In this document: piece after piece, positions 20,564-58,253 of the stretch
Layout: every line of letters starts with the position of its first letter
Numbering within the stretch: the first letter of the stretch is position 1
Source of the DNA: Cornus controversa
Taxonomy: Eukaryota; Streptophyta; Magnoliopsida; Cornales; Cornaceae
Reading direction: 5' to 3'
DNA: 64,000 nucleotides
Assembly (NCBI GenBank): GCA_026545225.1
Contig: CM048850.1
Coordinates: forward strand, 28,945,797-29,009,796
Notes under the pieces: generated by a model
The model's input: the letters and a program-made list of their open reading frames with translations, nothing else
What the model was told of the DNA's origin: nothing
Databases searched by the model: none
Position numbers and translations under genes: made by a program

Positions 20564-20568
20564 GTTAG

Positions 20569-21219
20569 TGTTGGAAAAAATTAATGTACAGAGCAAAGTG
20601 CTGATTTGGACAAGAAAATAAATAGGAATATATAATAAATAAAATTATATATAAACTTAGTTAAGGCATGAAACATTGCCCTTAAGAGTAGATCCTCCCT
20701 CTGAGACGACGTCTCGGTGTAACAGGATACGACATCCTGCCCTACAAGATACAACAACAAAATCTTACACTCATAATGTGGAAGAAGTCGAACAATTCAG
20801 TACAATCATCTGGTGATAATATAATTGTAGAACACTAACAATAGAAGCCTATAGTATTTTGCAGAATTTGAATACGTGAAAAGATTTTTGTAAAACTGTA
20901 ATAATGAAGGAATTTAAGAGTGAAAGCCTAAACGTATTTTTTTGTTGTATCAACTTCGTAGAACTTAGCTTTATTTGTAGCCAAAGTGTACAGCGGCTAT
21001 GCGCATAATATTAGCAACTAAATGCACGATTAGCGTCAATACATGCACAATATTGGGACTCAACATGAAAATATCATGTCTATAAATGCATGATATTTGC
21101 ACCAAACCCACCCACCTGATAATTTGGGACATGGGCAATTGACATAGTATTTGTGAGAAAATAAAAGATTCCTAATATATATTGTTATATATATTTTGAA
21201 ATATCTCAAATATACAACA
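20569..21219 (-). repeat. 3' LTR of copia E (651 bp)
   Basis: Bounded by TGTTGG and ATACAACA. Directly right of it is the minus-strand purine tract ATGTGAGGGAT (21220-21230). Its right 160 bases match 58088-58248. Confidence 0.85.
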
Positions 21220-21774
21220 ATCCCTCACATATTTCAAAATACAAAAGTAACTATAGAGTAATCAAATGTAACTAGAGGATCATGAGAACCCAATGCATCG
21301 GAACTGGTGTCTTTTGGACTATGAACTAGCCCTAAGGGAAGTAAGTCACCATTTACAGAAAAATTGGTGAAACTATGTTTCTATGAACCAAGATTTCTTA
21401 TTGTAGATCAGACAACTAACCACCCACATTGTTAACTCTATACCGAAGCTGTTCATATTGGGTTGGCACGAATAGGCTTGGCACCCTACCTGGATATTCA
21501 TGAGTGCTCTAGAGAGTCTGCCTACACTCTCATGGGGGGCGGCCCCACCTCCACACTTATATAGGTGAATTCATTAAGTGTCTACTGTAACTAAACACAT
21601 CACCTATTAGGGCTATGATATTCATTAAGAATTTTAATTCAACCTTTACGTTACAGTCTTGCACTATCTACACAATAAGGAGGAATTCTCAAAAGATATA
21701 GATGATAGTGCACTCTGCCTAATCAACTAGTAACTTATTTTTACCCATATGAACCTACTTCATGGGATCTCCAT

Positions 21775-22869
21775 TCACATAGGTTGGTCACCATCACTAT
21801 TGACCTTTGTTATAGGCATAAGTCCTATCCCCCTCGATGTATTCATCGCTAGCTTTTTGCCTAGCAGTTTTGTAAGAGAAGAGGCCAAATTAAACTCTGA
21901 CCTCACAAATTCTAGGGATATCTTCCCAGTAGCAAGCATTTGCTTCACAATATTTTGTCTTAGGCTCATATGCTTGATTTTCTCATTTTGTCCTTTGCTC
22001 TAGCTATCACAACTTGGCAATCACAGTGCATAGACACGGACAAAGCGGGTCTCATCCATGTAGGGATATCTACTATGTGAATTTTAAGCCATTTAGCCTC
22101 ATAATCAGCCTCCTCTAAGACTATGAATTCAGATTCCATAATGAACCGAGCTATGCATGTATGTTTGAATATTTTCCATAACATTGCATCCCCACCAAGA
22201 GTGAATACACATCCACTTGTGGATTTCATTTCATCTGAATCAAAAATCCAGTTAACATCACTGTACCTCTCTCGGATAGCGGGTAATCCACTATATTTTA
22301 ACTCATACTCATGAGTACCTTTCACGTATTTGAGTACTCGGGTTAGAGCTTTCCAGTGTTCCTTTTTAGGATTCTGAGTGTACATACCTGTTCAATCCAC
22401 CAACTGCATTTGCAGTGTGAGTCATAGAACATTTCATCAATACATCAATTAAATTGAGCATACTCAGATTATGACACGCTTTGCTCTTTAATTTTTCTTT
22501 AATTGAGAGTTATCATCATAAGGAAATGAAATAGGTTTACTCTCAAAGTAACCAAATTTTCATCATAAGGAAAGGAAACAAATTTACTCTCAAACTAACC
22601 AAATTTCCTTAGTATATTTTTAACAAAATATCATGATACCATCACATGTTCTAGTTAATTTCTAGATTCACATCTACTTCTCCCATATCTTTCACATTAA
22701 AGTTAGAGGTCAAAAACATCTTAGTCTCATTGACCATCTCAAGATTTGTTCCTATAATAAGCATGTCATCCTCACACAAACATATAGACATTGTTATTCA
22801 TAGATTTATAATATAGAGTTATCTGCCTCATTAATCAGAACAACATTTGATAATAACACGCTATCCATG
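21775..22869 (-). pseudogene. Copia E pol: 3' part of RT and RNase H
   Basis: The minus strand reads copia motifs in order: DDMLIIGTNLEMVNETKMFL near 22730-22790, then NPKKEHWKALTRVLKYVKGT, YSDVNWIFDSDEMKSTSGCVF, ARFIMESEFIVLEEADYEAK and IVKQMLATGKISLEFVRSEF. These belong to the end of RT and to the copia RNase H domain. Part of a broken element. Confidence 0.88.
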
Positions 22870-22874
22870 CTTAT

Positions 22875-24914
22875 TGTCACACCCTGGATTTTTGAGGAAA
22901 CCCAAATGTGAAAGATAAATAAAATAATGAAAAAATAAAAATTAAAACAAAAATTAATGAACAAATACACATTGATCCAATATCTATCCAATAAATCCCG
23001 TATAAATTCTAATACATTGGAAAAAATATTAAATATATTTCTTCCTTACAAATTCTCAGAATAATACAATCTCTACCAAATTCTGAAAAAAAATATAATA
23101 CTAATGATCCCACACTACTACCTTTTTAACCGGTACTACCAAGTCCCGTAATTATCCTTGTGTCAGCGTCCTAACTTACAAAGTCTGAGAGGGGGTGAAC
23201 TCAAAGCTCAACAAAGATATGCTGAACAATCTTTCATTGCTTCAGTAAGTTGACAATTGCATCATAATCTCAAAATATAAAAATAATTGATATTTTTATA
23301 AATAACACATTCACAAATATACAATTTATCATTTCATAACAATTAAGCATTGACAATTTATAATGCACAAACCACCATCAATATATAATTAAATGTACAA
23401 CACGTTCACAAGTAAATAAGCACACATCCACAAACTGTGCCCATAAAATAACACAATTGAAATGCACCAATTTACCAAACAAGTACATAATTAAATGCAC
23501 AAAATATCAATAAGTACACACATACACATTAACAAGTTGTGAACATAAAATAATGCCACAATTGCACTTAAACATCAATGCCACGTAAATAAATTTACAA
23601 CACAAAATATACTTCACATCCATAATTCAATTAATTGCAAAACATAATTTAAATAAGCAATTAACATTAACACATTCACATTCATCAATATGTATATATA
23701 TATAATTATATATATATATAATTATATATATATATATATATATACATTTATATATATATTATTATATAAATTTAATACAAGGCAACAATTATGCAGATAT
23801 ATCAAATTATACGAAAATTAAATGTATTATTAATAGGAGAAGAGAGCAAGTATCAACTTGCCTTGGCTTTTATCCGAAAGCCCGCGAATCCATTGTTGTC
23901 TAGAAATCCAAAGCCCTCCTTTTGGCTCGGTCCAATGTCAAGCCAAGCGCACAAAATCAATCCATTTCATTTTAAATCGATACTGGGCCTATTTTAAATT
24001 TCGCCCAGTTCAATTTACCAAGCTCAATAAACCAGCGTAAATCTTTGGTTCATTTATCTAGTCCACTCTATAGGCACCCAAATGTCAAAGCCCAATACTG
24101 CCTATGTTCAGATTTCAAGCCTAGTTTAATTAGGCCCAGTTAGATTGTGCAAGCCCAAATAATGCAAAATGGCACCCCAAATACATCAAAAATTAATTTA
24201 TGGTCCTAACTCACTTATTGCCCATGACCCACAACCTAACTCAGCCCACACAATTAACCCAATTGAACCATCACCAGCAGCAACTGCTGCAACATCGGCG
24301 CCACCACCTTTGGCTGGATCAGAAGCATAACAATTTCAATCACAACCTTCACAACCTTTGTCAAAAAGTTGACACTGATGGGCTAAACTTGAAACTCCCA
24401 TCTACCTTGGTCATAAAACCAAAATAGGCTGTAAGCTAACTACCAATCAATAATCAACAGAACACCCACTTCTCACCAAACTATGAACCTTCAGGACACC
24501 ATACCTTCACCACCTCAGCCGCTTGAAGGAGACCCACCAACAATACTCCCATGGCTACCGAGCCTAGTTTCCCACTTTCGCAAGCCCGTTCGCCATGCCT
24601 CAACTGCCATTAGTCGCCTAACAAGCTGTCATAACTGTGACGGTCAAGTCATCACAAGACCTATAATCGGCCACCTTAAACTCACGGTTGAGCCCCACCA
24701 TCAATACCCACCATCATGAGTCACGCTGGCGCCACCATCCTTACTGCCACAATGCAACCGAAACACCCAGCCGAGTCCCTCTTCTCTCTCTTGACTTCTC
24801 TAATTTTCTCTCCCCCTCATCTTTTTTCTCTAGAGATCTTTCCCTTCAGTTGATGGAGTACCCCTTCACCAAAACCCTAAACTCGAAGGAGAGCCCACCT
24901 TATTACCTTTCTCT

Positions 24915-24968
<54 letters not shown>

Positions 24969-25425
24969 ATAAATACTAAGAGAAAAATAAAAGGGAAAAA
25001 TAATAATAGATATATACCCAGTCCAAACCTAAACAATTATAATACAACCTAATCCAGCTCAAACTCAACCCAAATTCAAATAATCCAACCCAAACTCCCC
25101 CCTAGCTTAACTTGAAGAGAATTAAAAAAATAAAGAACATAAGTATGGTCCAACAAAGTAATAAAACACCGACATATTTTTACTAAAAAAATATAAAATA
25201 CATTTACAACAAAAACTGCACACATTAATAAAGGCTATCAACACTTAATACCTCTATATCAAACATCTATATTAAGCAATAAAGAACAGACATTTGAAAT
25301 TTTTTTAACTAAAGCGTTTAAACAAAAAAAAAATTTAACTAAAGCATTTAAACACTCACAAAAATAAACAATTTAAATAAATGAAAAACTCAAATTAAAT
25401 AACTTCAAAATTACGGGGTATTACA
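22875..25425 (-). repeat. LTR 1 of element A (3' LTR)
   Basis: Starts TGTCACACCCTGG and ends GGGGTATTACA. It contains the GGGGGTGAACTCAAAGCTC box near 23190, AT-rich simple repeats near 23690-23760, and a promoter-like zone at 24868-24962. It borders E's RT at 22874. Confidence 0.88.
24868..24962 (-). promoter_or_regulatory. Putative LTR promoter of element A: TA tract, CT/GA initiator zone, telobox
   Basis: On the minus strand a (TA)n tract (about 24919-24961) is followed by GAGAGAAAGG and, some 45 bases on, by TTTAGGGTTTTGG, a telobox-like motif frequent near plant transcription starts. The same arrangement recurs near 30018-30087 and 48585-48665 in the other two LTRs, with different TA-tract lengths. 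Function is inferred from position only. Confidence 0.45.
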
Positions 25426-25994
25426 TTCTTCCCCCATAAATAACTTCAATATTACATTCATCCTCCCTTTCCCAAGTGGATTCCACCTCATAAACCCAGA
25501 ACATGACCAAATGGGACTGACTATTGGTCACCACTATCATATGGGTGATTTTACTGTCCACTGTCTATTTCTTTTCCATTATTGGACCGACAAATTTCTA
25601 TCTCCCATAAAGAAATTTTATAAATTTTTCAAGGCAAACATTTATATAATAAAGTAAAAATTTTCTTCCTCACAAATTTTCAAGCCTAGTCCGATAGAGA
25701 ATATTACTCTCCTCAGTAAAGATCACTCTCACTTTCTATACTAGGTATTGCACACCTAACTCAACATATATATTTTTAAATTAAAATAAACATGTAATCA
25801 CGAAACGTATTGCACTTAATCAAATATCTACACATAAATGTGCAACTCATAAGAATTTAATAGCAATTTATAAATATAAAATCCAGCAGGAATTTCAACC
25901 TTGATAGAAAATAATTAAATGTATAATCAAGCAACTCATAATCTTTAACCGCATTTTATGAATATAAAATTTAGCAATCAATGCAATTATTACT

Positions 25995-26850
25995 GGTAAA
26001 TTTGTGAAATTGACAATCCCAACATACCTGTAAATAAATATTTGTAAAATTGGTAATCCCAACATGCCCGAAAATAAATATTTGTAAAGTTGGTAATCAC
26101 AACATGCCCAAAAATAATTATTTGTAAAATTCCAATCCCAACATGCCTGAAAATAAATATTTACAAAATTGGCAATCCCAACATGCACAAAAATAAGTAT
26201 TTCTAAAGCTGGCAATTCTAACATGCCCAAAAATAAATGTTTGTAAAATTGGCAATCCCAACATGCCCGAAAATAAATAGGTGTAAAAATTGGCAATCCC
26301 AACATGCCTAAAAATATATATTTGTAAAATTGGCAATCCCAAAATGCCCGAAAATAAATATTTGTAAAATTGGTAATCCCAACAAGCCCGAAAATAATTT
26401 GTAAAATTGCAATCCCAACATGCCCGAAAATAAATATTTATAAATTTGGCAATCCCAACATGCCCAAAAATAATTAATTATAAAATTGGCAATCCCAATA
26501 TGCTCGAAAATAAATATTTATAAAATTGGCAATCCTAACATGCCTGAAAATAAATGTTTGTAAAATTGGCATTCCCATCAAGCCCGAAAATAAATAGTTG
26601 TAAAAATTGGCAATCCCAACATGCCCAAAAATAAATATTTGTAAAATTGGCAATCCCATGATGCCCAAAAATAAATATTTGTAAAATTGCAATCCCAACA
26701 TGCCCGAAAATAAATGTTTATAAAATTGGCAATCCCAACATGCTTGAAAATAAGTGTTTATAAAATTGGCAATCCCATCATTCCCGAAAATAAATGTTTG
26801 TAAAATTGTCAATCCTAACATGCCCGAAAATAAATGTGTACCCTATTTAT
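25995..26850. repeat. 40 bp minisatellite, about 21 copies
   Basis: Unit core on the + strand: AATCCCAACATGCCCGAAAA, then TAAATATTTGTAAAATTGGC. Copies differ by substitutions and small length changes. Since 40 is not a multiple of three, repeated peptide frames on the minus strand are a by-product. Confidence 0.92.
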
Positions 26851-27379
26851 ATGAGGCAATCCTGACATGCTTATTCCCATACTTCACTGATACCTTGTTA
26901 GGCATTTGGCAATCTTGACATGCCTCCGGGCAATCCTTACATGTCTCCCTTATTAACAAATTAAATACCCAACTATATAATTGGCAATCATCACATGCCT
27001 CCCTTATTAACCTTGAATACCTTATTAGGTATTGGCAATCCTGACATGCCTCCTACATTCTTGACATGTCCCCTTTATTAACCTTGAATACCTTATTAGG
27101 TATTGGCAATCTTGACATGCCTCCGTATTACTTTTAAATAGTATAACTCTATATCTAAAACAACATTAAATCATAATTATAAAAATCACAGTAGACAACA
27201 TAACAGACAACTTATTTATGTCTACAAAAGAAAATCTAGTCCCCCGACAAGGGCTTATACTTAAACCCACAATTCCAAACTTACGTAAGTTTGGATTCTA
27301 ACTCTTCGTCCGAAGGTTTTCAAACCTAAATTCCAACCTAACGTGCCAAAGCCGTAGTCCTAGGGTGTTTGAATGTAAA

Positions 27380-27391
27380 GCTCTGATACCA
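27380..27391 (-). promoter_or_regulatory. Primer-binding site beside LTR 2 of element A
   Basis: The minus strand reads TGGTATCAGAGC (tRNA-Met type), two bases from LTR 2. LTR 2 therefore acts as the 5' LTR for internal copy 1. Confidence 0.88.
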
Positions 27392-27393
27392 TC

Positions 27394-30300
27394 TGTCACG
27401 CCCCGAATTTTTGAGGAGACCTGGAATGTGAAAAATAAATAAAATAAAAATTAAAAAAAAAATTAAAGAACAAATACACATTGATCCAATATCTATCCAA
27501 TAAATCTCATATAAATGTTAATACGTAGGAAGGAATTCATTAGGATGACTCAAATTTCTATTGTGATTAGGTTTCTATTATAGAGTTGTATCTTATTAGG
27601 TAATTTCTTAGTAGGCAAGCCTTGGCCTCAAGGAAGGAAAGTACGTGTTAGGTAAGTCTGGGCTCTCAGGAATTGTAATCCAAGTCCACAAAGGAATTGA
27701 GTTTTGGGCTCTATAAATAGTTACCTATGTTATAGGTTGAGATGAGTGAGAAGAAAATAGGCAATACTTTCATTGTATTTGAGAGGTTACTCTCATTGTT
27801 TTGAGAGGGCAACTCTTGCGTAGAGGTAATACTCTCATTGTTATTGAGAGGACACTTAGAGAGAGAATTCTTATTTAGAATTTGTGATGTCCTTTTGAGT
27901 TAGATTAGGTATACAAGGGTTATGGGTTAAGAGTTAAGCGTACTCTTGATACAATCTTTTTTCTTTTACTGTTACAATCTATATAGTGAAATCAGGCTCT
28001 GTGGACATAGGCTTGTTTAGCCAAACCACATATAATTCTTGGTGTGCTCTTGCAAATTTCTTCGTGCTTGTTTACTTATCATCACATCGTAATATTTGGT
28101 GATTTGCGATTGGGGGCTTATTTCACAACAGAAATATTAAATATATTTTTTCCTTACAAATTCTCAAAATAATACAATCTCCAAAATCTTGAAAAAAAAT
28201 ATAATACTAATGATCCCACACTGCTACCTCTTTAACTGGTACTACCAAGTCCCGTAATTATCCCCATGTCAGCATCCTAACCTGCAAAGTTTGGGAGAGG
28301 GTGAGCTTAAAGCTCAACATGGATATGCTGAATAATCTTTCATTGCTTCAGCAAGCTGACATTTGCATCATAATCTCAAAATACAAAAATAATTGATTTT
28401 TTTTATAAATAACAGATTCACAAATCTAGAATTTATCATTTCATAACAATTAAGCATTGATAATTTATAATGTACAAAACCACCATCAATATACAATTAA
28501 ATGTACAACACGTTCACAAGTAAACACATACACATCCACAAACTGTGCTCATAAATTAACACAATTGAAATGCACCAATTTACCAAACAAGTACACAATT
28601 AAATGCACAAAATATCAATAAGTACACACAAACACATTAACAAGTTGTGCACATAAAATAATGTCACAATTGCACTAAACATCAATTTCACGTAAATAAA
28701 TTTACAACACAAAATATACTTCACATCCGCAATTTAATTAATTGCAAGACATAATTTAAATAAGCAATTAACATTAACACATTCACATTCATCAATATTT
28801 ATATATATATATATATATTTATTCACATTTCTATTTAATAAATATATACACATCAATTTATATATATATTTTTATATAAATTTAATACACGGCAATAATT
28901 ATGCACATATATCAAATTTTATGAAAATTAAATGTATAATTAATAGGAGAAGAGAGCAAGTATCAACTTGTCTCGGATTTTTATCCGGAAGCCCGTGAAT
29001 CCATTGTTGTCTAGAAATCCAAAGCCCTCCTTTCGGCTAGGTCCAATGTCAAGCTAGGCCCACAAAATCAATCCATTACATTTTTAATTGATAATGGGCC
29101 TATTTTAGATTTTGGCCTAGTTCAATTTACCAAGCCCAACAAACCAGCCTAAATCTTTGGTTCATTTATCTAGTCCACTCTGTAGTGACCCAAATGTCAA
29201 AGCCCAATACTACCTATGTTCAGGTTTCAAGCCCAGCTTAATTACGCCCAGTTAGTTTGTGCAAGCCCAAATAATGCAAACAGGCATCCCAAATAAATCA
29301 AAAATTAATTTCCTGTCCTAACTCACTTACTGCCTATGACCCACTGCCTAACCCAGCCCACACAATCAACCCAGTTGAACCATCACTAACAACAACTGCT
29401 GCAACATCGGTGCCACCACCTTTGGCTGGATCAGAAGCATAACAATTTCAAACAGAACCTTCACAACCTCTGTCAAAAAGTTGACACTGATGGGCTAAAC
29501 TTGAAACTCCCATCTACCTTGGTCATAAAACCAAAATAGGTTGTAAGCCAACTACCAATCAATAATCAACAGAACACCCACTTCTCACCAAACTATGAAC
29601 CTTTACGACACTAGACCTTCACCATCTCAGCGACTTGAAGGAGACCCACCAACCATACTCCCATGGCTGCTGAGCTTAGTTACCTACTTCCACGAGCCCA
29701 TCCGCCATGCCTCAACTGCCATTAGTCGCCTAGCAAGCTGCCATAACCGTGACTGTCAAGTCATCACAAGACCCAACCGAAATGCACCTACGTACCAAGA
29801 ACCCATAATCGGCCACCTTAAACTCACGGCCTAGCCACACCATCGATACCCACCATCGTGAGTCACGCTGGTGCCACCATCCTTACTGCCACCATGTAGC
29901 CGAAACACGTAGCCGAGTCCATCTCTTTCTCTCGACTTCTCTTTCCTTATCTCTTTTTCTCTCTCTCTCCCCTTCTCTTTCTAGAGATCATTCCCTTCAG
30001 TTGATGTAGTTCCCCTTCACCAAAACCCTAAACTCGAAGGAGAGGCCACCCTATTCCCTTTCTCTCTATACTATATATATATATATTAGAAGAATAAATA
30101 CTAAGAGAAAAATAAAAGGAAAAAATAATAATATATATATACCCAGTCCAAACCTAAACAATTATAACACAACCTAATCCAGCACAAACTCAGCCCAAAT
30201 TCAAATAATCCAACCCAAACTCCCCCCTAGCTCAACCCGAAGAGAATTAAAAAAGTAAAGAACATATGTGTGGTCCAACAAAACAGTAAAACACCTACAT

Positions 30301-30548
30301 ATTTTTACTAAAAAAAAATAAAATAAATTTACAACAAAAACTACACACATTATTAAAGGCTATCAACACTTAATACCTCTAAATCAAACATCTATATTAA
30401 GCAATAAAGAATAGACATTGGAAATTTTTTAACTAAAGCATTTAAACAAATTTTTTTTTTACTAAAGCATTTAAACACTCACAAAAATAAACAAATTAAA
30501 TAAATGAAAAACTCAAATTAAATAACTTCAAAATTACGGGGTATTACA
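27394..30548 (-). repeat. LTR 2 (middle LTR) of element A
   Basis: Starts TGTCACGCCCCG and ends GGGGTATTACA. It has a primer site on its left and a purine tract on its right (GGGGAAAAA on the minus strand at 30549-30557), so it is 5' LTR to one internal copy and 3' LTR to the other. Longer than its partners because of the insertion at 27538-28130. No target duplication of its own. Confidence 0.86.
27538..28130 (+). mobile_element. Solo LTR of copia type inserted in LTR 2
   Basis: LTRs 1 and 3 lack this block. It ends TTTCACAACA, contains a TATA box (CTCTATAAATAG near 27708) and GAGAGG/TTGAGAG repeats. It is flanked by GAATT (left) and GAAAT (right), a near-match duplication. No internal region or coding, so it is read as a solo LTR; the left end is uncertain by a few bases. 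Confidence 0.65.
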
Positions 30549-30928
30549 TTTTTCCCCTTAAAAAGAGGAATTTCGTCTTCGAAATTCACCCCACACCTGA
30601 AATGAAAAGCTCTGGATACTTTGCCATTATTTCATCCTCCTTTTCCCAAGTGGATTCTACCTCATCAACCCAGAACATGACCAAACGATACTGACTATTG
30701 GTCACCACTATCATATGGGTGATTTCACTATCCACTGTCTATTTCTTATCCATTATTGGACCGACAAATTTCTGTCTCCCATAAATAAATTTTATAAAAT
30801 TTTCATGGTAAACATTTGTACAATAAAGTAAAAAATTTCTTACTGACATTTTCCCAAGCCCAGTCCGATAGAGAATATTACTCCCCTCAGTAAAGATCAC
30901 TCCCACTTTCTATACTAGGTGTTACACA
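30549..30928 (-). other. Element A, internal region copy 2, left part
   Basis: Homologous to 25426-25757, starting with the purine tract and GAATTTCGAAGACGAAATTC (minus strand). It is interrupted by element B and resumes at 44586. Confidence 0.82.
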
Positions 30929-33900
30929 TGTCACGCCCCGGAACCCGGATCGCCGAGACTCCCTCGGACCGACTCGAATCCCGAGTGTGAACCCGTGAGA
31001 TCACCCTCACGCTATAACCACCACTTGATCATACAATCTCAATTTCTTATTATTTTCACAAAAATTGGGCATAACCCAATCTAATAAATCGGATCTTGAT
31101 ATGTCATTCCTGCTTTCAATTCAAATGGACACTTATGGGCACGTGTTCCCTCAGCATTTATATCTAACAATCAAAATGGACAGTTCTAGGCACGTGTCCC
31201 CCCCAACATTCCTCCAACATGCATTAAACAATTGAAATAATAACTCAGTCCCTGAATGTCTGTCTCATATACATACATCAAATGTACAACTGGGATAAAT
31301 TACCCAACATAAAATGTCCAGCTACATTTAATCCAAATGTACAACATCTATCTAAAATCCTGGACATAAATTAGATTCTAAGGAGACTAATCACTACCTC
31401 TACAACTGGTACTACCAATCCCCCAAATGACTCCAAAATTAGCAACACCTGCAAAACTTGGGAGGGGGTGAGCTCAAAGGCCCAACAAGGTATGTAGAAC
31501 CATACTATCACTGCTGCAGCAGGTCGATCCTCACATATTCTCAAAAACATACACATTTAAATATGTCACAATATTTAAATCATGCTCCACCTAGCATATA
31601 CACACCAACAATGCATATGGCCAACCTAGCACATATGAACATATAAACCAACTACGCATGATTTTTGAAATCATTTTCAACATGCTTGAAAGCAGTAAAC
31701 ATCCAACACCAATATGTATATAGAACATATATGTCGAAACATTTACATAAACCAATGTAAATCAATCATCACGTCCCCTACTCGACAAGTAGCAATCTCA
31801 AATGTAATGAAGATGCATTTAAACCATAAAACATGCTTAAAAGAAATAGACATCCAACATACATCATGTTCCATCACAAGCAACGTATATATATAAGAAT
31901 GCGTTAAACACTTAGAATGCTTCACCAATGCACACATTTTTAATATACATATAGCATGCATTTAATTCATATAAACCCACACGTAATCACGTACATGTCA
32001 ATTGATGCATATAAATCACCTATGCACATACACTAGCATAAATATAGTCATGCTCTCATTCAATGCATACATTCACTACAAGTAGCCAACATCCATTCCA
32101 ATCACAATATATATACACATATATATATATTTCGTCACTTATATACGTAATAAGAACATATAGAACAATTAGCACATCATAATCATGCTCTTCAAATGCT
32201 CGCCAACACTATAATCATATATAGCATGCATTTTCACTACTACCACAAATATATAATCACATATATATTTAACACCATGCATAAAAGCCACATACGCATA
32301 CGAAACAACGCTTAGCTAAACATATATTATTTAGCATACTTTTCATAGACTTTAATCTATACTATACATGCATATCACAATGCAAAGAAGCATTTAAATT
32401 TAATCATGCCTTCACATCCCAAATATATATACGCACATATATATATATTTTCACTCACATCCCATGCATATACAATATCCACCTTTATATATATATATAC
32501 ACACACACATATATATATACAAATGCCACATATGATTAAATTAAGAGCATATGTAAATTAATCAATATAATTAAAGTATAAACGTAGGAGATAGAGGTAA
32601 GAATCAATTTGCTTTAGGTCCCACTTTCACTAAGTCCGTGCCTGCAAATCAGTCCATCTCCAAGTCCCGATCCAGTCCTTTGTCGAATCCCACATGAATA
32701 ATTTAACTAAACCGTTTTCCTTTCTATTTTCCATGTTTGAGCCAACTCAAATTATGAACCCAAACCATAAACCAAATTCAGCCCAATTTCATTTTATTTG
32801 AATCTAAACCCGGCCAATTCCTTGGGCCTAACCCAAACCAATCTTTAACCCAATTCAAGTCTTGGGTCCATTTCAATTTAACAGTCATCACCTAGCTACT
32901 ATCACCATTATCCTTCCCATTGAAATCGGCCAATACCACACTGTTCAACCATCGTTAATTACCATCTTCCTCACCAACCGGGAGCGAATCCATTCCAGAC
33001 ATTGGAGCTGCCGCAAGCCCCACCCGAAACCATCATAAACAACAATAAACAACCAAGGAGATCCATCAAAATAAGCTATTCGAACAGCTGTGAGGAACAA
33101 CCATCGGGTCACCCAAGACCGCCATTTCCAATCGCGGACCAGCTATGCCAAACACAGCCTTTAACCGCGCTGCACTTCCACCACCAAGGCCGAGCAAACC
33201 CCCAACCAATTTCAGCCACCACAGGCTATCCAAAGAAAAACTAAACCCATCTCCATCGGAACCAACCGAAACCAGCCCCTTCGGTACCACCATGGACCCC
33301 GAAACCATGAGCAACCCAAGGAGAAAACCCATCATCAGCCGAGCCTCCACCATCCACGGTCCCCTGTCCAAGAAGACCCGTGAGCCTAGCCATAACACCA
33401 CCCAAACAGGCCACTTCTGGCCACCACAGCACCCAACTGACAGCCACCAAGCTCCCTCAACTGAGCCACCAAGCAGGCCACTCAACCACCGAACCCACCT
33501 GCAACCATAGCCGGTCACCCACCATGGAAGACCCATCCGAACTGTTATAGCTGAACCCAACCGAGCTCAACCCAAAATCAAACCAAACACATCCTCACCA
33601 ACAAAGAGCCCAAATAGTCCACGTGGTCGAACCCAATCGCGAGCATCCGTCGGACCCTCATGATCGGACCACCAACTGACTAGCTCACAGCCCAATCGTG
33701 AGCCACCACCGTTGCCCAAGCTCCACCATGAGCATCACCCAATCGCGAACAGCCCAGCCAAACTGAGCCACCATGCGACACCGAACAACACCATCGTGAA
33801 CAGACGACAACCACAATCGCCGTCGACACCACCACCGAAAATGACCTCCACCGCTTCTGCTAGGGCCGCTGAAATGGATCCCCCTTTTCTCTCCTTCGGT

Positions 33901-34303
33901 TTCTCTCTCTCCCGATTTCTCTCTTTTTCCCTTTCCATTTTCTTCTTTTCTTTTTCCTTTTCTTTCCCTCTCTTTTCTCTCCTCTCAGCCGGACCACTCA
34001 TGTGGTCTTCCTTCTCTTTATTTTTGAATCCTTTTTAATACGCACCACATATTTTGTCAACTAACCTTAACCACATAAATATATATGTATATAATATAAC
34101 ATATAATACCATATAGGTGAACACACTCTTCCACTTATATATATATATCCCACACATATATATATACATCCCCAACATATATATAATTGCATATATATAT
34201 ATATACATGTATCTCCACATTTTTCCAAAATTAATTAATTCAAAAAATATTAAATCCGGTCCAAATTCACCCGGAATAGTCAACATTAATCCGGGTCATT
34301 ACA
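30929..34303 (-). repeat. 3' LTR of element B (3.4 kb)
   Basis: Starts TGTCACGCCCCGG and ends CCGGGTCATTACA. It contains GGGGGTGAGCTCAAAGG (about 31465), many (TA)n runs, a GC- and CCACC-rich zone (33000-33850), a CT-rich zone (33890-33990) and a TATA-rich zone (34080-34210). It lacks the 49 bp array present in the other LTR. Plus-strand open frames in the GC-rich zone are discussed in the findings. Confidence 0.87.
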
Positions 34304-42751: not shown

Positions 42752-42787
<36 letters not shown>

Positions 42788-44580: not shown

Positions 44581-44849
44581 ACACACCTAACTTAACATAT
44601 ATATATTTTAATTAAAATTAACATGTAATCACATAATCATGTCACCACGAAACATATTACACTTAACAAAATATCTACAGATAAATGAGCAACTCATAAT
44701 CATTTAACAGCAATCTATAAATATAAAATCCAGTAGGTATTTCAACCATGATAGAAAGTAATTAATTGTATAATCAGGCAATTCATAAACTTTAACTGCA
44801 TTTATGAAGATAAAATTTAGCAGTAAATGCAATTATTACTGTTAAATTA

Positions 44850-46165: not shown

Positions 46166-46748
46166 TAATTGTGTACCCTATTTATATAAGGTAATCCTAA
46201 CATGCTTATTCTTGTACTTTACTGATACCATATTAAGTATTTGACAATCCTGATATGCCTCCGGGCAATCTTTACTTGCCTCCCTTATTAACACATTAAA
46301 TACCCTCCTATATAATTAGCAATCCTCACATGCCTCCCTTATTAACCTTGAATACTTTATTAGGTATTGGCAATCCTGACATGCCTCCTACAATCCTGAC
46401 ATGCCTCCCTTATTAACCTTGAATACCTTATTAGGTGTTGGCAATCCTGTCATGCCTCCATATTACTTTTAAATAGAATATATATATATATATGTATATA
46501 TATATGACTCTATATCAAAAACAACATTAAATCATAATTATGAAAATCACGACATACAACACAGCAGACAACTTATTTATGTCTACAAAAGAAAATCTAA
46601 TCCCCGAGAGGGTCTTATACTTAAACCCACAATTCCAAACTTACGTATGTTTGGATTCTAACTCGTCGTCCGAAGGTTTTCAAATCTAAGTTCCAACCTA
46701 ACGTGTCATTGGGACCTAACCCGTAGTCCTAAGGTGTTCAAACCCAAA

Positions 46749-46760
46749 GCTCTAATACCA
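46749..46760 (-). promoter_or_regulatory. Primer-binding site beside LTR 3 of element A
   Basis: A tRNA-Met-type site lies two bases from LTR 3, at the same spacing as the site beside LTR 2. Confidence 0.8.
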
Positions 46761-46762
46761 TC

Positions 46763-48635
46763 TGTCACACCTTGGTTTTTTGAAGAAACTTGGAAAGTGA
46801 AAAATAAATAAAATTAAAATTAAAACAACAATTAAAGAACAAATACACATTGATCCAATATCTATCCAATAAATCTCGTATAAATGTTAATACATTGGAA
46901 GGAAATATTAAATATATTTCTTCCTTACAAATCCTCAAAATAATACAATCTCTCCAAAATCTTGGAAAATATATAATACTAATGATCCCACATAGCTACC
47001 TTTCAATTGGTACTACCAAGTGCTGTAACTGTCCCCGTGTTAGCATCCTAAGCTACAAAGTCTGCGAGGGTGTGAGCTTAAAGCTCAACAAGGATATGCT
47101 GAACAATCTTTCATTGCTTCAATAAGTTGACATTTGCTTTATAATCTCAAAATATAAAAATAATTGATTTTTTTATTTATAAATAACACATTCACAAATA
47201 TTCAATTTATCATTTCATAACAATTAAGCATTGACAATTTATAATGCACAAAACCACCATCAATATACAATTAAATGTACAACACGTTCACAAGTAAACA
47301 CGTACACATTAACAAACTGTGCCCATAAAATAACACAATTGAAATGCACCAATTTATCAAACAAGTACACAATTAAATACACATTTATTCACATTTGAAT
47401 TTAATAACTACATACACATCAATTTATATATATATTTTTATATAAATTTAATACATGGTGACAATTATGCACATATACCAAATTATATGAAAATTAAATG
47501 TATAATTAATAGGAGAAGAGAGCAAATATCAACTTGCCTAGGATTTTTATCCGGAAGCCCGCGAATCAATTGTTGTCCAGAAATCCAAAGCCCTACTTTC
47601 GACTCGGTCCAATGTCAAGCCAAGCCCACAAAATGAATCCATTTCCTTTTAAATTGATACTGGGCCTTTTTTAAATTTTGGCCCAGTTCAATTTACCAAG
47701 CCCAATAAACCAGCCTAAATCTTTGGTTCATTTATCTAGTCCACTATGTAGTGACCCAAATGTCAAAGCCTAATACTGCCTATGTTCAGATTTCAAGTCC
47801 ATTTTAATTAGGCCTAGTTAGATTGTGCAAGCCTAGATAATGCAAACAGACACCCCAAATAAATCAAAAATTAATTTCTAGTCCTAACTCACTTACTGGC
47901 CAAGACCCGCAGCCTAACTCAGCCCACACAATCAACCCAACTGAACCATCACCAGCAGCAACTACTACAACACCGGCGCCACCACCTTTGGTTGGATTAG
48001 AAGTATAATAATTTCAAAGATAGCTAAGAAACCTTTGTCAAAAGGTTGACACTGATGGGCTAAACTTGAAACTCCCATCTACCTTGGTCATAAAACCAAA
48101 ATAGGCTGTAAGCCAACTACCAATCAATAATCAACAAAAGACCCACTTCTCACCAAACTATGAACCTTCACAGCACCAAACTTTCACCACCTCAGCCGCT
48201 TGAAGGAGACCCACCAACCATACTCCTATGGCTGCCGAGCCTAGTTACCCATTTTTGCGAGTCCATCTGCTATGCCTCAACTACCATTAGTCTCCTAGTA
48301 AGCTGCCATAACCATGAATGTCAAATCATCACAAGACCCAACCGAAATGTACCCACCAAGAACCCATAATCGGCAACCTTAAACTCACAGCCCAACCACA
48401 CCATTGATACCCACCATCGTGAGTCATGCTGGTGCCACCATCCTTGCAGCCACCATACTGCCGAAACACCCATTTATGTCCCTCTTCTCTCTCTCTCGCG
48501 GCTTCTCTTTCCTTTTCTCATTTTCTCTCCCTTTCCTCTTTTCTCTTTAGAGATCCTTCCCTTCAGTTAATGGAGCCCCCCTTCACCAAAACCCTAAAAT
48601 TGAAGTGAGAGCCCATCATTTACCATTTCTCTCTG

Positions 48636-48666
<31 letters not shown>

Positions 48667-49086
48667 TGGAAAAAATAAATACTAAGAGAAAAATAAAAGG
48701 GAAAAATAATAAAAGATATATACCTAATCCAAACCTAAACAATTATAATCCAACCCAAACTCCCCCTTAACTCAACCTGAAGAGATTAAAAAAAATAAAG
48801 AACATAAGTATGGTCCAACAAAATAATAAAACACCAACATATTTTTACTAAAAAAATATAAAATACATTTACAACAAAAACTGGACACATTATTAAAGGC
48901 TATCAACACTTAATACCTCTAAATCAAACATCTATATTAAGAAATAAAGAACAGATATTGGAAAATTTTTAACTAAAGCATTTAAACATAATTTTTTTAA
49001 CTAAAGCATTTAAACACTCACAAAAATAAACAATTTAAATAAATAAAAAAATAAATTAAATAAGCTCAAAATTACGTGGTATTACA
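46763..49086 (-). repeat. LTR 3 of element A (5' LTR)
   Basis: Starts TGTCACACCTTGG and ends GTGGTATTACA, then CTTAT. It is collinear with LTRs 1 and 2, with a CT microsatellite followed by (TA)n near 48630-48665. Confidence 0.87.
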
Positions 49087-49091
49087 CTTAT

Positions 49092-49507
49092 TGACTGAGA
49101 ACTTGTTTTTAGACCATAAAATGATTTTACTCATTTACACATTTTATGCTAATGACCAGAAGCTACATAATCTTTACATTGATCTATATAAATTTCTTCT
49201 TCTAATTCTCCATTAAAAAATGCAGTTTTAACATCCATTTGGTAAATAACAAGATTGTTTATAGAAACTAAAGCAATCAAGACTCTAATAGAAGAACCTT
49301 AGTTAGGCACCCCCACATTTTCATATATGACAAATTAGGTGCATAATCTTTTCCACAACTCATATGATGTTTTACCATTTTTCTTATATGAGATTCTATT
49401 TTGTATATGACAAGTTGACATAATGGCCTCCTCCACAAGTTAATAATTATCCCAAAAATTACAATGTTTACTCCATTCACGTACAGTGAATACATTCTCT
49501 CAAACAA
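49092..49507 (-). pseudogene. Copia E pol: RT entry and integrase tail fragments
   Basis: The minus strand reads YQMDVKTAF-type RT sequence near 49190-49260, and a copia integrase tail (KDYAPNLSYMKMWGCLTKV) near 49290-49370. It continues E on the far side of A. Part of a broken element. Confidence 0.75.
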
Positions 49508-50709
49508 TTGTTAAGGAAGTTATTAAAAAATTATATTGTAATTGATATACAATATTTCTCTATTCTTACCTTCGAAGTTTCAAGGCATATCTCCTAGAGA
49601 ACTTCACTAATTTTGAAACTCCTTATCTTACTCGACAATGGATCACAACTAAGTGGATCTCGTGGCCTTGAGTTTAAAATATGTCCAATGTTACATATCT
49701 ATATATGTATACTAAACACCCATCTAAAACTCCCTTCAATCACATATATACAGTTAGCATCCAAAGAAAATAAAGGACACTAATAACATCATTTGGTCTT
49801 GTGAGCAACGAATTAGAAGAGAAAAAAGTTTTTATCTATATTTATATATGAAAAATATAGACACAAGTGCATCAATCACAAATACCCATACCCACTTTTT
49901 CTTTCTCTATCCATGCGTCAGACCAAGACTCCGCTTTCTATTCTCTTTAAATTTCTTTTCAAAGTTATATTATAAGAATAGTGGAAATATTTTCATCCTT
50001 TTTAGTTTAGTGTAACCAAGGAAAAGCTGAAGCTTGTACCACCTACAAACCCTTTTAGTTAGCAACTTTGTCTATTTTTTTTTCTTTTGGATATCTTATA
50101 CACTTTTCAGTATCTCTATCCATATATATATATATACATGGAAAGTTCCACTAACTATAATGACATATCATAAATACAATACATCATGCACATCATTAGT
50201 TCTCAATCAACAGAAAACAAAGATTAAAAATTATCTTTCTTTTCTCTCACTATGCTGACACCACTTCTTATCTCTTTGAGATATTTATTTCACAACACAC
50301 ACACACACACACACACACAAATATATAGATACACACCATCGACACTCTAGCAATTAATTAATGCAAGTGGGATTTGCTTTTATGCATAAGTCTACACAAT
50401 GAAACTCCTCTCTTAATTTTAATACCTACAAGATTGTAAAGCTATGTTGAGAATATATATATATATATAAAATCTCCTGATCCCTCTTTCACTTTTGTCA
50501 CGTACCACATAGTATACTATTAACATTTCAAAATACTTTCTCCACTGAATACACATGATTGTTTATAAAATCACATATTCCAATATGTCCAAACAAAGAC
50601 CCATAGACAAATAAATCACATCATTTAATTCTCTTCAATCATTTTTATATGTCCAAATGAAATAAGTTTATTTGAGAATAACACGTACAATACTAATCTT
50701 GATATCTAC
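49508..50709. other. AT-rich sequence, probably decayed interior of copia E
   Basis: No domain is recognised. It contains a (CA)n microsatellite at about 50296-50320 and short (TA)n runs near 50120 and 50455. Its place between E's pol and element C suggests decayed E interior, but this is inference. Confidence 0.4.
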
Positions 50710-50917
50710 TATCACACCCCGATTTCTGACTCTCAGAAATCGAGGGTGATCAAGTCACAAACCCATCTCAAAATCGGAGAAAGTTATCATAATCACATTA
50801 TTACGTATGCACAGTCCTGCAACGCTCATCTCAATGGGTCCACACATGGCCACACACACACCTAACTTCACTCATTCTATTTATCAAGTTAGCGAAGGCT
50901 ATAATCAGCACCAGCTT

Positions 50918-51055
50918 TTTTCAGTCAGCTGAAGAAGTGCTCTAGAAATGCTTGTTTCATTCTGTATCTTTCAGTCGCCTGAAAGTGGACTTTCAGCAAG
51001 CTCAAAGTGAACTTTCAACAAGCTCAAAGTCGACTTTCAGCAAGCTGAAACTACC
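50918..51055. repeat. Cluster of CTGAAAG/CTTTCAG motifs in the LTR of C
   Basis: TTTCAGTCAGCTGAAG, TTTCAGTCGCCTGAAAG and several GACTTTCAGCAAGCT copies lie within 140 bases, partly in tandem at about 22 bases. The incomplete LTR repeats this at 57960-58087. It occupies the place of the TTCGATGCATCGAA cluster in G. Confidence 0.75.
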
Positions 51056-51884
51056 TGGGCCTGAATTTTTTGCTGTATTTACTCAACCTGATACATTGGT
51101 CATTTTTGTGTCTAAATCTCATCTTAACACCCCGGATCATTCATACAACACCTATAGAATTTATAAATACTGAATCATCATGCACATATTCTAAAATCAT
51201 GCATTTAAAATAATAATAAGCCCACAATCCTTATACATCTTCTATACAATTTCACAATAAACATAAATGAATCTATTGTCTTTACTTACGAACTTCGAAT
51301 GATAAATATGAGTTACATATATAAGAATGTAACTACTAAGTCTACATGATTCACATGCCACATGCCGGCATGGATGGCCAAGTATACAATCTATATATAA
51401 AGATCTCAAAATCTATCCGAATGTTCAAAGTGACCGGTTATGTCCTTCCCATCTGTCCTTAGGCATTATCTGAAAAATGTTAGGGGAGAAAGGGGTGAGC
51501 ACCATGGCAGCTCAGTAGAGATACCCAAACCAACCTATGCATCGACTCGATGGAACCTACATGAATGCAAGCATGGCATCCCTGTACTATATGGTATACT
51601 TCCAATGCATGTAAAATGTTTTCATGACATTCCTACACGTTACATGGCATACAATAGTGCGCATGCTCAATGAGGTTTCAATTTAAAGCTTAAATGGGAA
51701 AGCATGTTCAACATTACTCACTTTCAAGTAAAATGCCACACAATATCAACACAATTATCACAATTCAATAATAACACTTAAACACCAAACCACGTAAGTT
51801 TTGAAATCACATGAGAGTGGGAGTAGTCGTAGGTCATGGGTCAAAAGCCTTCGAACACTTTTCCCAATATTTTATTTCACAGGC

Positions 51885-52003
51885 TAAAATCCGAGGGTCT
51901 AGACAAAACTCGATATTCTACTTTATGGGTGATCAATCCGAGCGTTTAGACAAAACCAATATTCTATTTTATGGGTTACTAACCCAAAGGTCTAGCTAAA
52001 ACC
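51885..52003. repeat. About 48 bp tandem repeat, 2.5 copies, in the LTR of C
   Basis: Units share GGGTCTAGACAAAACTCGAT-like and ATTCTA(C/T)TTTATGGGT-like strings. The location matches that of the arrays in G and B. Confidence 0.65.
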
Positions 52004-54120
52004 CCCTTGGCCAAATTCCGAGCTCGATGCCCTTTTTCATTTCTGACCTACTCCCAAAATCAACAACCAATCACATCGGTTTGAAGTATGGCAACACATG
52101 CAATTTCAAATGTATCATAAGTCACTTAACCCATATGCTAAAACATGTAATTTCATTCATTTTATAATGCAACCATGCCATAGTTCAAGTGCATTATAAG
52201 CCATTTAATTCACATTCTAAACTATGTAATTCCATGCATATCACAATGCAACATTTGAAGGAAATGATCATTCTCATACATATTATCAAACATATAACAT
52301 GTATTATATACACAACATGGTCTCTACACTACAATTCATGTTATGAAGAAACAATACTCCACAATTAGTAACACTTAAGCATATAAACATAATTCAATAC
52401 ACATGAATTCAACAACACCATCAATTATCATGAAATGACCCAATTAAAAGTGCAAGACTCACATTCTCATAATTTTAGACATGCTAAACAATACAACTCC
52501 CATCAATTATTAAGGAATCGATGATAAGATGGAGAGAATACCCCTACCTCAAGTTTGGAAGCCTTCCAAGCAATCTCCAAAAATCACCAAACTTTAAGTT
52601 TGTCCAAATTACGATTTCTTTCTGTAGAACCGTAGATCGGGTTGAGGAGAACACACTTTCCTTCTTGGACGAAGCCCGAATCCAAACTTTAGTAACTCTC
52701 AATTTTCAGAACTCTCATTTGGGGGATTTTGAGCCCACCAATGTGTAGAGGAAGGAGAGAGAAGAAGCTTTCTCTCTTAAGACAAGGCCCAAACACACTT
52801 TAAAGTGATGAAAACCAAGAAGGAAGCTTCGGGAAGAAGGAGAGATTTTAATGACTGGAATCTGTTTGTATCACCTCTGCCCCAACAATATATATATGTA
52901 TATATGACACCTCACTAAGGGTAAATGACCCTTTTGCCCTTAAGTCTCTTAACGTACCTTCCCGGACTCTGTTTTTGATTTCAAAAACTCCTATGGTCTC
53001 GAAATTACTTCCTTAATTCATTAAAAATTTTGTTATATCAAATTTTAAAAATAAATATTTCTCAAAATTTTTTAAATTTTCGGGCCCACCCGGACTGTAT
53101 CTTGGGCCCCGGTTTGACCAAAAAGTCAAACTTCTCCAAATCTTTTGAAAACTTCCAAAAACCTTATAACATATTTAAAAACATGTTTTCCACTCTCGAA
53201 ACATCCATATGATCATTTAAAATGTATTTATAGTGAAAAATGATAAAAAAAGAAAATCGGCCAAAATTGGTCACAGTCATTACAACCTCTCCTCCTTCAA
53301 GAAATTTCATCCTCGATATTAGGAACATACTATAAGTTTTCAAATTTTATCACAAAACCTTTGGTGACCTCTCTTAACTCCCTGCCGGTCTCCAAGACTC
53401 GGCTTTCACTCCTTACCCAATGAGGCTTTTAGTTTCCCTCATGTACAACTTCATTCCAAGTCCATGAAACATTTTAGGTATTAGTAAACCTTAACTACGT
53501 CCAGATATCACCAAAGTTATAGTGAAGTCTCCATACCATGAACCCACATGTCACTATCACTTCCTAACCTAAGTTCAGGAAGGATCAACACTATAATCAA
53601 CCAACTTTTGAAACAATGAAAGTATGGGCACATACCTCTGTCCACTAACTCATTTACATTGAGTTACAATTTTCAAAATCCTTTCTTTAGACCACATCAT
53701 GTGTACAAGTCTAAACTCTCATTCCTCATTCCTCATATCTGGCCTATAGCCAACACTTCCTAAAGAGCTATAACACAATCCTCAACGAATTTGATCACGT
53801 TCCTCTTCCCAATGAAAAGTAAGGATAATTTTTTCTAAGGTGGTGCTTCAAAACACATGAAACTCTCATTTTCCTATATCTTGTAATTGATCCTTGGATC
53901 TCTCCAACCCTGTTAGTACCACAAGGTACGGCATAGTAGAATCTCACTATTTATTTGTCACCTATTGCTTGGTCAATGATTAAACAAAAACAAAACTAAC
54001 GGTATCCCCACTATTATCCTCTCATGACGTCGAAACAAATCATGCTCTAAAAATTGAGTCAACTTCTTTACAATAATCATAACTTGATCTCTTAGGGTTA
54101 TATTACCCATAATGATACCT

Positions 54121-54490
54121 CAATAGACAAAACTGTGTCCAGAGATAAAATCCCATCTCAACGAATGCGTCAATAGACAAAATTGTGTCTACTTGATGAC
54201 AAGTACTTTCTTAGATATGTTAATGGAGAAAACTGTCCCCAAATAACAACCTACCAAACTAAGGGTAGAGTCACAGACAAAACTGTGTTTTCAGTGACGA
54301 CAATAAAAAACAACGAATGGGTCAGTGGACAAAACTGTGTCCAAAAATGATACCAATCCCTCATCTAACGTGTCAATAGACAAAACTGTCTCTTAATGAC
54401 AACATCGTCCTCATCGGCATGTCAATAGACAAAATTGTGCCTATATTAACAGTAACAAACGCAATAGATATGTCAATAGGAAAAATTATG
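54121..54490. repeat. About 50 bp diverged tandem repeat, 8 copies, inside C
   Basis: CAATAGACAAAACTGTGTC and variants recur near 54121, 54171, 54222, 54272, 54322, 54367, 54421 and 54473. The spacers are less conserved than the core. Confidence 0.8.
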
Positions 54491-57400
54491 CCTTAAGGAC
54501 ATTCTCCTTTGATAACCATTCTGAAATCTATTACTTTCTAAGAACTCTAGCCTGTCTCCTCAAGTACTCTATCAAGCACTGCAATACAACCTTAAGAGTG
54601 GTTTAAATTCAACCTACTATTGTTATCATGAACACTTTGACAAGAATTTTCTTGCTCATCTCAGTTATAATTTCATCTATGAGTAAAATTTCTTTCATAC
54701 TCAAAACCATCCAAATCTCATTTTCTTACTCATCAATACCTAACGAGTCAATTCCATAACTATCTGTATCTAGCACATTGTAAGAGAAGCACTAATCAAA
54801 GAAAAATGTCTGGCCAGACCATTTTCCCTTGTTAGTCTAACTCTGGCAATATGCCATACTTGTCCTCTCAACCTCTGTTCCATCCAACCTGGAACTATAA
54901 TCAATTCTCAGATTTCCCACCTGAGAAACACTATATTCTACCCTTCTCAAAGTTCTATGCTCACTCCTGGAATCTATTACGACCCATCCACCTCAAGTAT
55001 CACAACTTACCCAAGCCAAAACTTTTGGCCCGTCTCGTTAAGCCTCAGAACTAAAATCCCTATGCGGTAATGATACGCCTAATAATACCATGTGACTTCT
55101 AATGTAACCGCCTATACCCTCTGCACAATCATATAAACCACACCAATAATATAGCATATCTCACATTACATCAAGAATACTCTAGGTTTTCCTAAAACCA
55201 ATCCCAACAAGGCATTTTTATCTCCAATAGTCATCACTTTTCTCATTCCATACATCCTAGGCATTACACTTGCAACACCTAACTTATAACACTTGAGTCT
55301 AGTACAATCAGTGCACCTCAACTGCTCTAAAACAGTATAACCACGGAATGATCTAGCTAATGTGAGTGGACAACTCTGAGTCCTAGGCCTCAGCCTCAGT
55401 ATGATGAGATAATTTTGATAGTCATACCCTAATGGATAATTACACAACTTTTGTGACATGATTAGGTAATCCCAAATCCCATGTACAGTTCACTTTCATA
55501 ATACCATGAAGCACTTACTTCCTAGAGTTCACACTCTCTACCTCAAGACCTATCCAGTCTATCTTTATCTTTAGTCTAAGGTAATATCCTTGACTAATCA
55601 TACCAATCACTCACAGTGATGCGTCCTTGTCATTGGGATCATCAATACCCAAAACTTTCCACCATTATCTAGTATGACTTTAACTATTACACTATTTCAG
55701 GTATCGTCCAAAATCTCTTACCTCACTGTGACACAACTATACCAAACCAGTGCACTACCTAGAACAAGGTATATAAAGGGTGCATTTGTAAACACAATTC
55801 ATAGGGTTCTGTTCGCCTTTATAGATTATAATCCAATGGGCATTTAATGCCATATCTAGGGTTTTACATCCCCTTCACTTCACCGTTTCATTTCATCACT
55901 ATCAATCATGATTGTCCGATGCATCATCACTACAAACCGCATCATATCCAGTGCACTTAGCATAATAAGCGCACTAACCAAACAAGTCACGTGATAATGT
56001 ATTTGCTAGGATGAACCACATATATAGTGTACTTGCTGCAACAAGTCACATAACTCTGCCCAATTTCATAGATTACAACCCAATATAATACAACATCAAA
56101 TCTAGGATCTTACGTCCTACGAACTTCACAATCTCATTATCCAAGAGGGGAATCATTCCTCTTTTCATCCTTTCACTCCAAGGAACTAATTCACAGTTAC
56201 AAAGAAGTCCTTCCTATAACACTTCACTTTAGGCAACCTTTACTACTGAGATTTGAGGTCGCCTACTGTAACCTACAATCACACACAACCAACCTGGTGT
56301 ATAATTCTGGACTGCGTTCATTGTACCCATTTCTTTCTCCTTATGAAAGGTATTTTTTTTCTCACCTTAGACACTACATATCAAGGTTTTCACACACCTT
56401 AAGCATCATACTCACACTCATGATACCACTGGTCAACTTATTCTTTACTTAATCATCATATCCACACAAATGACATAACTTTAAACTCATCTCACATAGT
56501 TCAACTTCTCATTTTTAGACGTGCAATGTCATCACATGTCCATTGACTCAAAGGAATTCGATAAATCCTGAGTCCTCATCCGACTATTTTAATAGTACCT
56601 CTTAGACACACCTTGTCTAGAATCCCGATATCATAATACCACCCACACCTCAGTTGATTAACTAACCTCTAGTCCTTTACTAGTCGTGCAAATTACAACG
56701 TCACTTTAAACCACTACCAAACTCTTGGTTTGGAAATCTTCAAGGTAAATCATACCCTTTCCAACAACCTTAGGCTCACGCTATCGAAGTCTATCACACA
56801 TGTTCATCTCAACATCACAATCAACTCAGTTCCAATCCTCTTCCTAGGTTTACCAATCCTTAAAATCTAAGATTTATAAGCGGTGACTTCATGCCACTAC
56901 TAAACATGTGACGCATAATGCAACGCTCATATGTAATGTTCAGTTACATAAATCACATAATTCATAAAGCACATAACATACAACATGATAAATCAAATAA
57001 ACACATACGATGCATGACATGATATATGATGTATCTAAACAACCTAATTCCTTAGCCCTTGAGATACAACTAGGAAAATACCCCAAACCTCGCATGGTCC
57101 TGGTACATCTTTTGCCCGAGCAAGCGTGAAAACACGAGCCAGTTTCTCCTAGTACACTAACACATACTAGAATTCACCACACCAAGAGTGGTTGTCTTCA
57201 ACCTCAACCTCAAATGAACACATGTTCAATTTCTCATTCTTCGTCCAAGGTAATCATACCTATCACTTTGATATACTTTTGCGATCACATAGTTCCAATC
57301 TAATACATGATTGGACTTCATCTTACATCTTTAAGTTTTCAACCTATAGCTTTAATGAAATTCTAGTACTCACCGTACATCCTCAATTTCATACGTAATC

Positions 57401-57737
57401 CAACCATTATTCTCTTCTCTAGGTATCCCCATTTAGAGCTTTTCCAATCAACTAATACCTGTTGTCCCCAAGTATTCAAACCTAATGCTTTAATAGTAAT
57501 TGGGAAATCATTAATTCCTCTCAATTCAAATTAGGATTCAACTTTGACCCATCACCTCTAGGTACCCCAACCTAGTGTCCAGACAAACTACAAGTCAATA
57601 CTTTCTTCCAATCTAACACGTGACCAAGTACTTAGGTTTTTGGACCAAGTACTTTGACACCATTCTGTTACTTAATACATCATCACAAATCCCTACATGG
57701 TTTGACCTCCCTTCGTCCCTAGGTGTTCAAACCTAGT

Positions 57738-57749
57738 GTTCTGATACCA
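57738..57749 (-). promoter_or_regulatory. Primer-binding site of element C
   Basis: A tRNA-Met-type site lies three bases from the 5' LTR start, close to the form seen in A, B and G. Confidence 0.75.
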
Positions 57750-57752
57750 AGT

Positions 57753-58087
57753 TGTCACACCCCGATTTCGAACTCCCAGAAACCAAGGGTGATTAAGTCA
57801 CAAACCCATCTCAAAATTGTAAAAAGTTATCATAATCACATTATTACGTATGAACAGTCCTGCAACGCTCATCTCAATGGGCCCACATATGGCCATTCAC
57901 ACACCTAACCTCACTCATTTTATTTATCAAGTTAGCTAAGGCTATAATCAGCACCAGCTTCTTTCAGTTGGCTGAAAAGAAAGTTTCAATCGGTTGAAGA
58001 AGTGCTCTAGAAGTGCTTATTTCATTCTGTATCTTTCCATCGCCTGAAAGTGGACTTTCAGCCGCCTAAAAGTGGACTTTCAGCAAG
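57753..58087 (-). repeat. 5' LTR of element C, incomplete
   Basis: Starts TGTCACACCCCG and matches the first part of the 3' LTR through the CTGAAAG cluster. It is followed directly by the LTR end of copia E. Confidence 0.8.
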
Positions 58088-58248
58088 CTCAACATGCAAA
58101 TATCACGTCTATACATGCATGATATATGCACTCAACCCACATGCCTAATAATTTGGGATATGGGCAATTAACTTAGTATTTGTGAGAAAATAAAAGATTC
58201 CTAATATATATTGTTATTTATATTTTGAAATATCTCAAATATACAACA
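58088..58248 (-). repeat. 5' LTR of copia E, outer part
   Basis: Matches 21059-21219 closely and ends ATACAACA, followed by GTTAG, the same five bases that precede the left LTR. Confidence 0.88.
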
Positions 58249-58253
58249 GTTAG

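Follow-up and report, generated by a model that had tools for sequence, protein, structure and literature searches.

Nested long terminal repeat retrotransposons, one of them a tandem, in a 64-kb window of the Cornus controversa genome

A stretch of 64,000 nucleotides from contig CM048850.1 of Cornus controversa (assembly GCA_026545225.1, positions 28,945,797 to 29,009,796 of the forward strand), referred to here as the window and numbered from its first letter, contains at 20564-58253 a nest of long terminal repeat (LTR) elements whose second level is a tandem with three LTRs. The four principal elements lie one within another: E (20569-58248) holds A (22875-49086), A holds B (30929-44580), and B holds D (36510-39752). 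Each starts with TG and ends with CA, and the four 5-bp target duplications, GTTAG (20564-20568 and 58249-58253), CTTAT (22870-22874 and 49087-49091), ACACA (30924-30928 and 44581-44585) and CCAAT (36505-36509 and 39753-39757), are all exact pairs; the ends of A and B are further fixed within 0-3 bases by the start and stop of homology among their own LTR copies. It is very probable that E came first, that tandem A then entered E, B entered A and D entered B, with H and a short insert going into A and F into E; counted together, the block holds at least seven insertions. An earlier sequence-only reading had presented a simple stack of four elements, each level dated by its duplication. The nesting itself gives the order E, A, B, D, which holds; the simple stack does not, given the tandem structure of A and the presence of H, F and an insertion in the middle LTR of A, and a duplication marks a separate insertion without giving it an age. 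The layered nest is real but ordinary; nesting and tandems have each already been published in plants.

Of the four, E would have been the first to insert; it is the relic of a minus-strand Ty1/copia element. Its complete left LTR (20569-21219) ends in 161 bp that match the right LTR remnant (58088-58248, followed by GTTAG) at 91.3%, and it is by this homology that the right end of E was set; the sequence GTTAGTGTTG is found nowhere in the 64-kb window except at the claimed left end. The internal sequence is divided by A into a left part (21220-22869) and a right part (49092-49510), each with a fragment of the reverse transcriptase domain RVT_2: the match right of A (49152-49298; E-value 1e-9, 38.8 bits, model positions 62-102) is above the curated Pfam cutoff of 31.6, and that left of A (22654-22797; E-value 6.7e-6, 26.3 bits, model positions 164-207) is below it. 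Matches on both flanks place A inside the reverse transcriptase of E. When the A site is closed by joining the 75 bases on either side across one CTTAT, the right RVT_2 frame continues into the left flank and meets a stop after 22 residues there; these residues are taken here, by eye, to be copia-like. Two other pieces of E, presumably RNase H-like (21969-22391) and integrase-like (49280-49510) to judge by eye, gave no Pfam match.

A, likewise on the minus strand, is a tandem in which LTRs alternate with internal regions and stand at both ends, all within the single CTTAT duplication: LTR1 (22875-25425), internal region 1 (INT1, 25426-27393), the shared middle LTR2 (27394-30548), internal region 2 (INT2, 30549-46762) and LTR3 (46763-49086), LTR1 and LTR3 being delimited by homology among the LTR copies. 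INT1 and INT2 are homologous; INT1 carries tandem repeats of about 40 bp, a site resembling a primer-binding site (PBS) adjoining LTR2 and, within 25725-25785, an uninterrupted homologue of the target of B, and INT2 is interrupted by B (with D inside it) and by H. The possibility that A is a single two-LTR element was ruled out by the three LTRs. A PBS-like motif stands directly before LTR2 (27383) and LTR3 (46752), as well as before the right LTRs of B (40547) and F (57741); the labels PBS, polypurine tract (PPT) and solo LTR are given here by resemblance, except where tested. One minus-strand piece, out of 23 listed as overlapping INT1 or the right-hand portion of INT2, was scanned against Pfam and gave no match to a pol domain. 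A, an LTR element in which no coding sequence was detected and which is probably non-autonomous, entered the reverse transcriptase gene of E, its two units sharing the middle LTR. The arrays of about 40-bp repeats occur in both internal regions (26000-26837 and 44851-45775), and their arrangement differs between the two.

The insertion of B, an LTR element on the minus strand, into the second internal region of A is documented by a control within the window itself. In the alignment the target is intact in INT1 as TACTAGGTATTGCACACCTAACTC, and INT2 reads TACTAGGTGTTACACA, then B, then ACACACCTAACTT; because INT1 is homologous to INT2, it represents an uninterrupted copy of the insertion target of B. 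The sequence-only reading had each inner pair lying inside recognisable sequence of the next outer element, which holds for A in the RVT_2 of E and for B in A; for D it is backed by a flip in GC skew and by terminal repeats. B and H are confined to INT2, and LTR2 alone carries an insert of about 600 bp. The presence of B in INT2 alone, together with its lower divergence, would place B after the doubling of A; taken alone, the empty copy in INT1 is formally compatible with a crossover between a homologue carrying B and one lacking it.

The left LTR of B (30929-34303) is shorter by about 0.6 kb than the right (40559-44580). Part of the extra stretch in the right LTR, 41956-42225, matches the right LTR region of another element in the window, G (7655-7926), at 79%, and a junction of short homology, ATGCTTCA/ATGCTTTA, is present in the left LTR; the two observations make a deletion in the left LTR the better fit, and an insertion of the 615 bp into the right LTR was considered less likely. 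The stretch missing from the left LTR includes 49-bp tandem repeats (41637-41930). The differences between the LTRs of B are mostly transitions, with a ratio of transitions to transversions of 3.4 against 1.3-1.7 for the LTRs of A.

Relative ages were assessed from Kimura two-parameter (K2P) distances with block-bootstrap intervals, the LTRs of A being compared on 2,257 three-way columns. The three LTRs of A differ by 0.114 [0.094-0.140] for LTR1-LTR2, 0.130 [0.109-0.155] for LTR2-LTR3 and 0.124 [0.104-0.145] for LTR1-LTR3, and INT1-INT2 by 0.120 [0.095-0.142] on 1,126 columns from which the 40-bp arrays (26000-26837 and 44851-45775) were excluded. The LTRs of B differ by 0.070 [0.059-0.080] on 3,378 columns, computed without 41559-42172, which has no left-LTR partner, and with the 8 bases at 31917-31924 of the left LTR counted in both parts of B. 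The corresponding values are 0.093 [0.045-0.153] for E on 161 columns, 0.106 [0.071-0.148] for F on 318 and 0.120 [0.091-0.148] for G on 953. The LTR1-LTR3 distance of A exceeded the distance of B in 4000 of 4000 bootstraps (difference 0.057, interval 0.033-0.083), and A is clearly older than B. LTR divergences had been expected to fall in the order E, A, B, D; the clock confirms that part of the order in which A precedes B, E and A are nominally but not significantly reversed, and D, LTR-like but lacking a partner for comparison, takes its position from nesting.

H, a 250-bp solo-LTR-like sequence on the minus strand (45775-46024), sits in the 40-bp array of INT2; its duplication, GCAAT, is a fifth exact pair, absent from the earlier reading. 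The insertion of about 600 bp that LTR2 carries but LTR1 and LTR3 lack (27534-28131) has no clean duplication and may be a decayed copia-type solo LTR, judged by eye from its ends only. H and this sequence would represent separate insertions into A. F (50710-58092, minus strand) is an LTR element with DNA similarity to B and G. Its left LTR extends to about 53284, a limit placed from homology with the edges of B and G, and its cut right LTR (57753-58092) is fused to the LTR of E at a common CTCAA; F would have inserted into the right part of E, and a later deletion would have joined its LTR to the tail of the E LTR. Pfam matches to pol domains, as expected of a gypsy element, were found in none of the 11 minus-strand stop-to-stop pieces of at least 45 amino acids (aa) in F and in none of the 8 in B, one of which lies in an LTR; Pfam on B, F and one piece of A returned weak unrelated matches only. 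The sole link of B and F to gypsy is their DNA relation to G (1-8787, minus strand, cut by the start of the window), a gypsy-type element with RVT_1, SH3_Tf2-1 and a weak integrase-core match, and B and F are not classed as Ty3/gypsy.

How A came to be doubled is addressed by the divergence of its internal regions, which is equal to that of its outer LTRs: the ratio of INT1-INT2 to LTR1-LTR3 is 0.97 (bootstrap median 0.94, interval 0.72-1.23), computed with the last INT piece taken as 46187-46762 in place of 45776-46762, on 1,112 rather than 1,126 columns. This equality makes the doubling about as old as the insertion of A, and the doubling probably occurred at or soon after that insertion and before B. 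A tentative and somewhat doubtful proposal is that A, as an old tandem, was doubled at the time it inserted; if true, this would favour a ready-made tandem over a later crossover. A is testable for this because its divergence of about 12% and the later insertions supply substitutions and time marks. The chances are even that doubling followed insertion, through unequal recombination between the two LTRs of A on sister chromatids or homologues. One CTTAT duplication surrounds the whole array, and on the side facing INT2, LTR2 tends towards LTR1, the pattern that a crossover product should show, with sites at which LTR1 is odd or LTR3 is odd numbering 62 and 56 to the left of the best breakpoint and 44 and 80 to the right; however, the evidence for a mosaic is marginal, with p 0.067 by directional permutation, the split behind the Fisher p of 0.038 was picked after viewing the windows, the left side of LTR2 has no clear lean to LTR3, and internal regions as diverged as the outer LTRs require the crossover to have been early. 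That A arrived already doubled, originating from a tandem transcript or complementary DNA, is plausible at slightly below even chances; it agrees with the equal divergence of internal regions and outer LTRs and with the near equidistance of the three LTRs, but an early unequal crossover fits the same values, and the marginal mosaic signal in LTR2 speaks against arrival as a tandem. Both mechanisms are discussed in PMC11899658, according to which such tandems are frequent in plants; that paper does not decide between insertion in tandem form and origin by recombination. The present data do not separate the two routes.

Several observations count against the layered reconstruction. The left RVT_2 piece of E (22654-22797) is in a frame other than the one that crosses the closed A site, stops occur in both flanks and the frame continuity is short; a match in another frame implies a later frameshift between the two. 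The PBS-like motif occurs eight times in the searched forms on that strand, three of them beside no recognised LTR (16789, 40449 and 46222). About 1.2 kb between the integrase-like piece of E and F (49511-50709) has no convincing match in the window and is either E sequence or another insertion, and F itself, whose insertion into E is suggested by its position, retains neither its right flank nor a target duplication. Finally, the divergence of E is nominally below that of A though E must be older: E was lower in 84% of bootstraps, with an interval for the difference of -0.086 to 0.036, and was below B in 17%. On 161 bp this reversal is not significant (binomial P 0.12-0.18), and when transversions only are counted, E (0.044) matches A (0.042-0.047), B standing at 0.015. 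The reversal would not be unusual, since PMC7251063 reports that among 4126 nested pairs the inner element was the more diverged in 1042. An assembly mis-join of unrelated repeats would suit a region that is highly repetitive, but it is very improbable as the source of the block; five exact duplications at element ends are not expected of a mis-join, nor are reverse transcriptase sequences flanking A on the left and right, or an uninterrupted target of B within the same window.

D, a 3,243-bp insertion in B on the plus strand, has TG..CA ends, a duplication and no LTR pair of its own, as a solo LTR would, and may have been left as a lone LTR after inserting into B. Taken alone, the duplication is weak and not significant, since 92 of 62,088 TG..CA pairs at least 200 bp apart within 34306-40558 share matching 5-mers. 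The terminal inverted repeat of D, 10 of 12 bases, is the best among these 92 pairs, the next reaching 9. GC skew changes at both borders, from -0.33 to +0.17 on the left and from +0.15 to -0.34 on the right, and is near zero in the middle of D (250-bp resolution). F matches sequence on both sides of D, in support of a single B-type element spanning the two flanks; to the right of D the matches follow another order, and the comparison of B with F yielded no empty site for D. The alternative that D is another type of insertion, or an element with unrecognised LTRs of its own, gains from the 162-bp tandem repeats within D and from the lack of a second copy of D in the window; it is nonetheless unlikely, as the ends, the inverted repeat and the 5-bp duplication argue against it together with the skew change at both borders and the lack of a terminal direct repeat inside D.

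Two further features flank the nest. An open subtilase frame of 805 aa on the plus strand (12218-14635), with matches to Peptidase_S8, Inhibitor_I9, PA and fn3_6, lies between G and the nest. About 0.55 kb to the right of the nest is a second copia element on the plus strand (58807-63884), with 225-bp repeats 92% alike, Pol_BBD and RVT_2 matches, and TGGTATCAG at 59034.

The locus is a clean case of layered insertion that carries its own controls within the window, namely the intact copy of the B target and the reverse transcriptase on both sides of A; A also serves as a datable old tandem for the question of whether tandems insert as such or form later, which one locus cannot settle. According to PMC11899658, the rice elements TLI1 and TLI2 resemble A in having two internal regions, three LTRs and one short target duplication, and TLI2, like A, sits inside another transposon. 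By the same source TLI1 is 94% identical in its internal regions and 85-89% in its LTRs and TLI2 is 99% identical, compared with 88-90% in both the LTRs and internal regions of A; unlike the two rice elements as described there, A is interrupted by later insertions. Structurally complex LTR elements and tandem terminal-repeat retrotransposons in miniature (TRIMs), the subjects of LTRtype (PMC5379124) and Wukong (PMC4528315), are alike by description only; they reportedly include complex elements with nested insertions and a tandem arrangement put down to unequal crossing over. Nested plant LTR retrotransposons, as described in PMC6911290 and PMC7251063, show ordered insertions with target duplications as seen here; unlike the nested elements described there, the second level of the Cornus controversa nest is a tandem and the block holds at least seven insertions.

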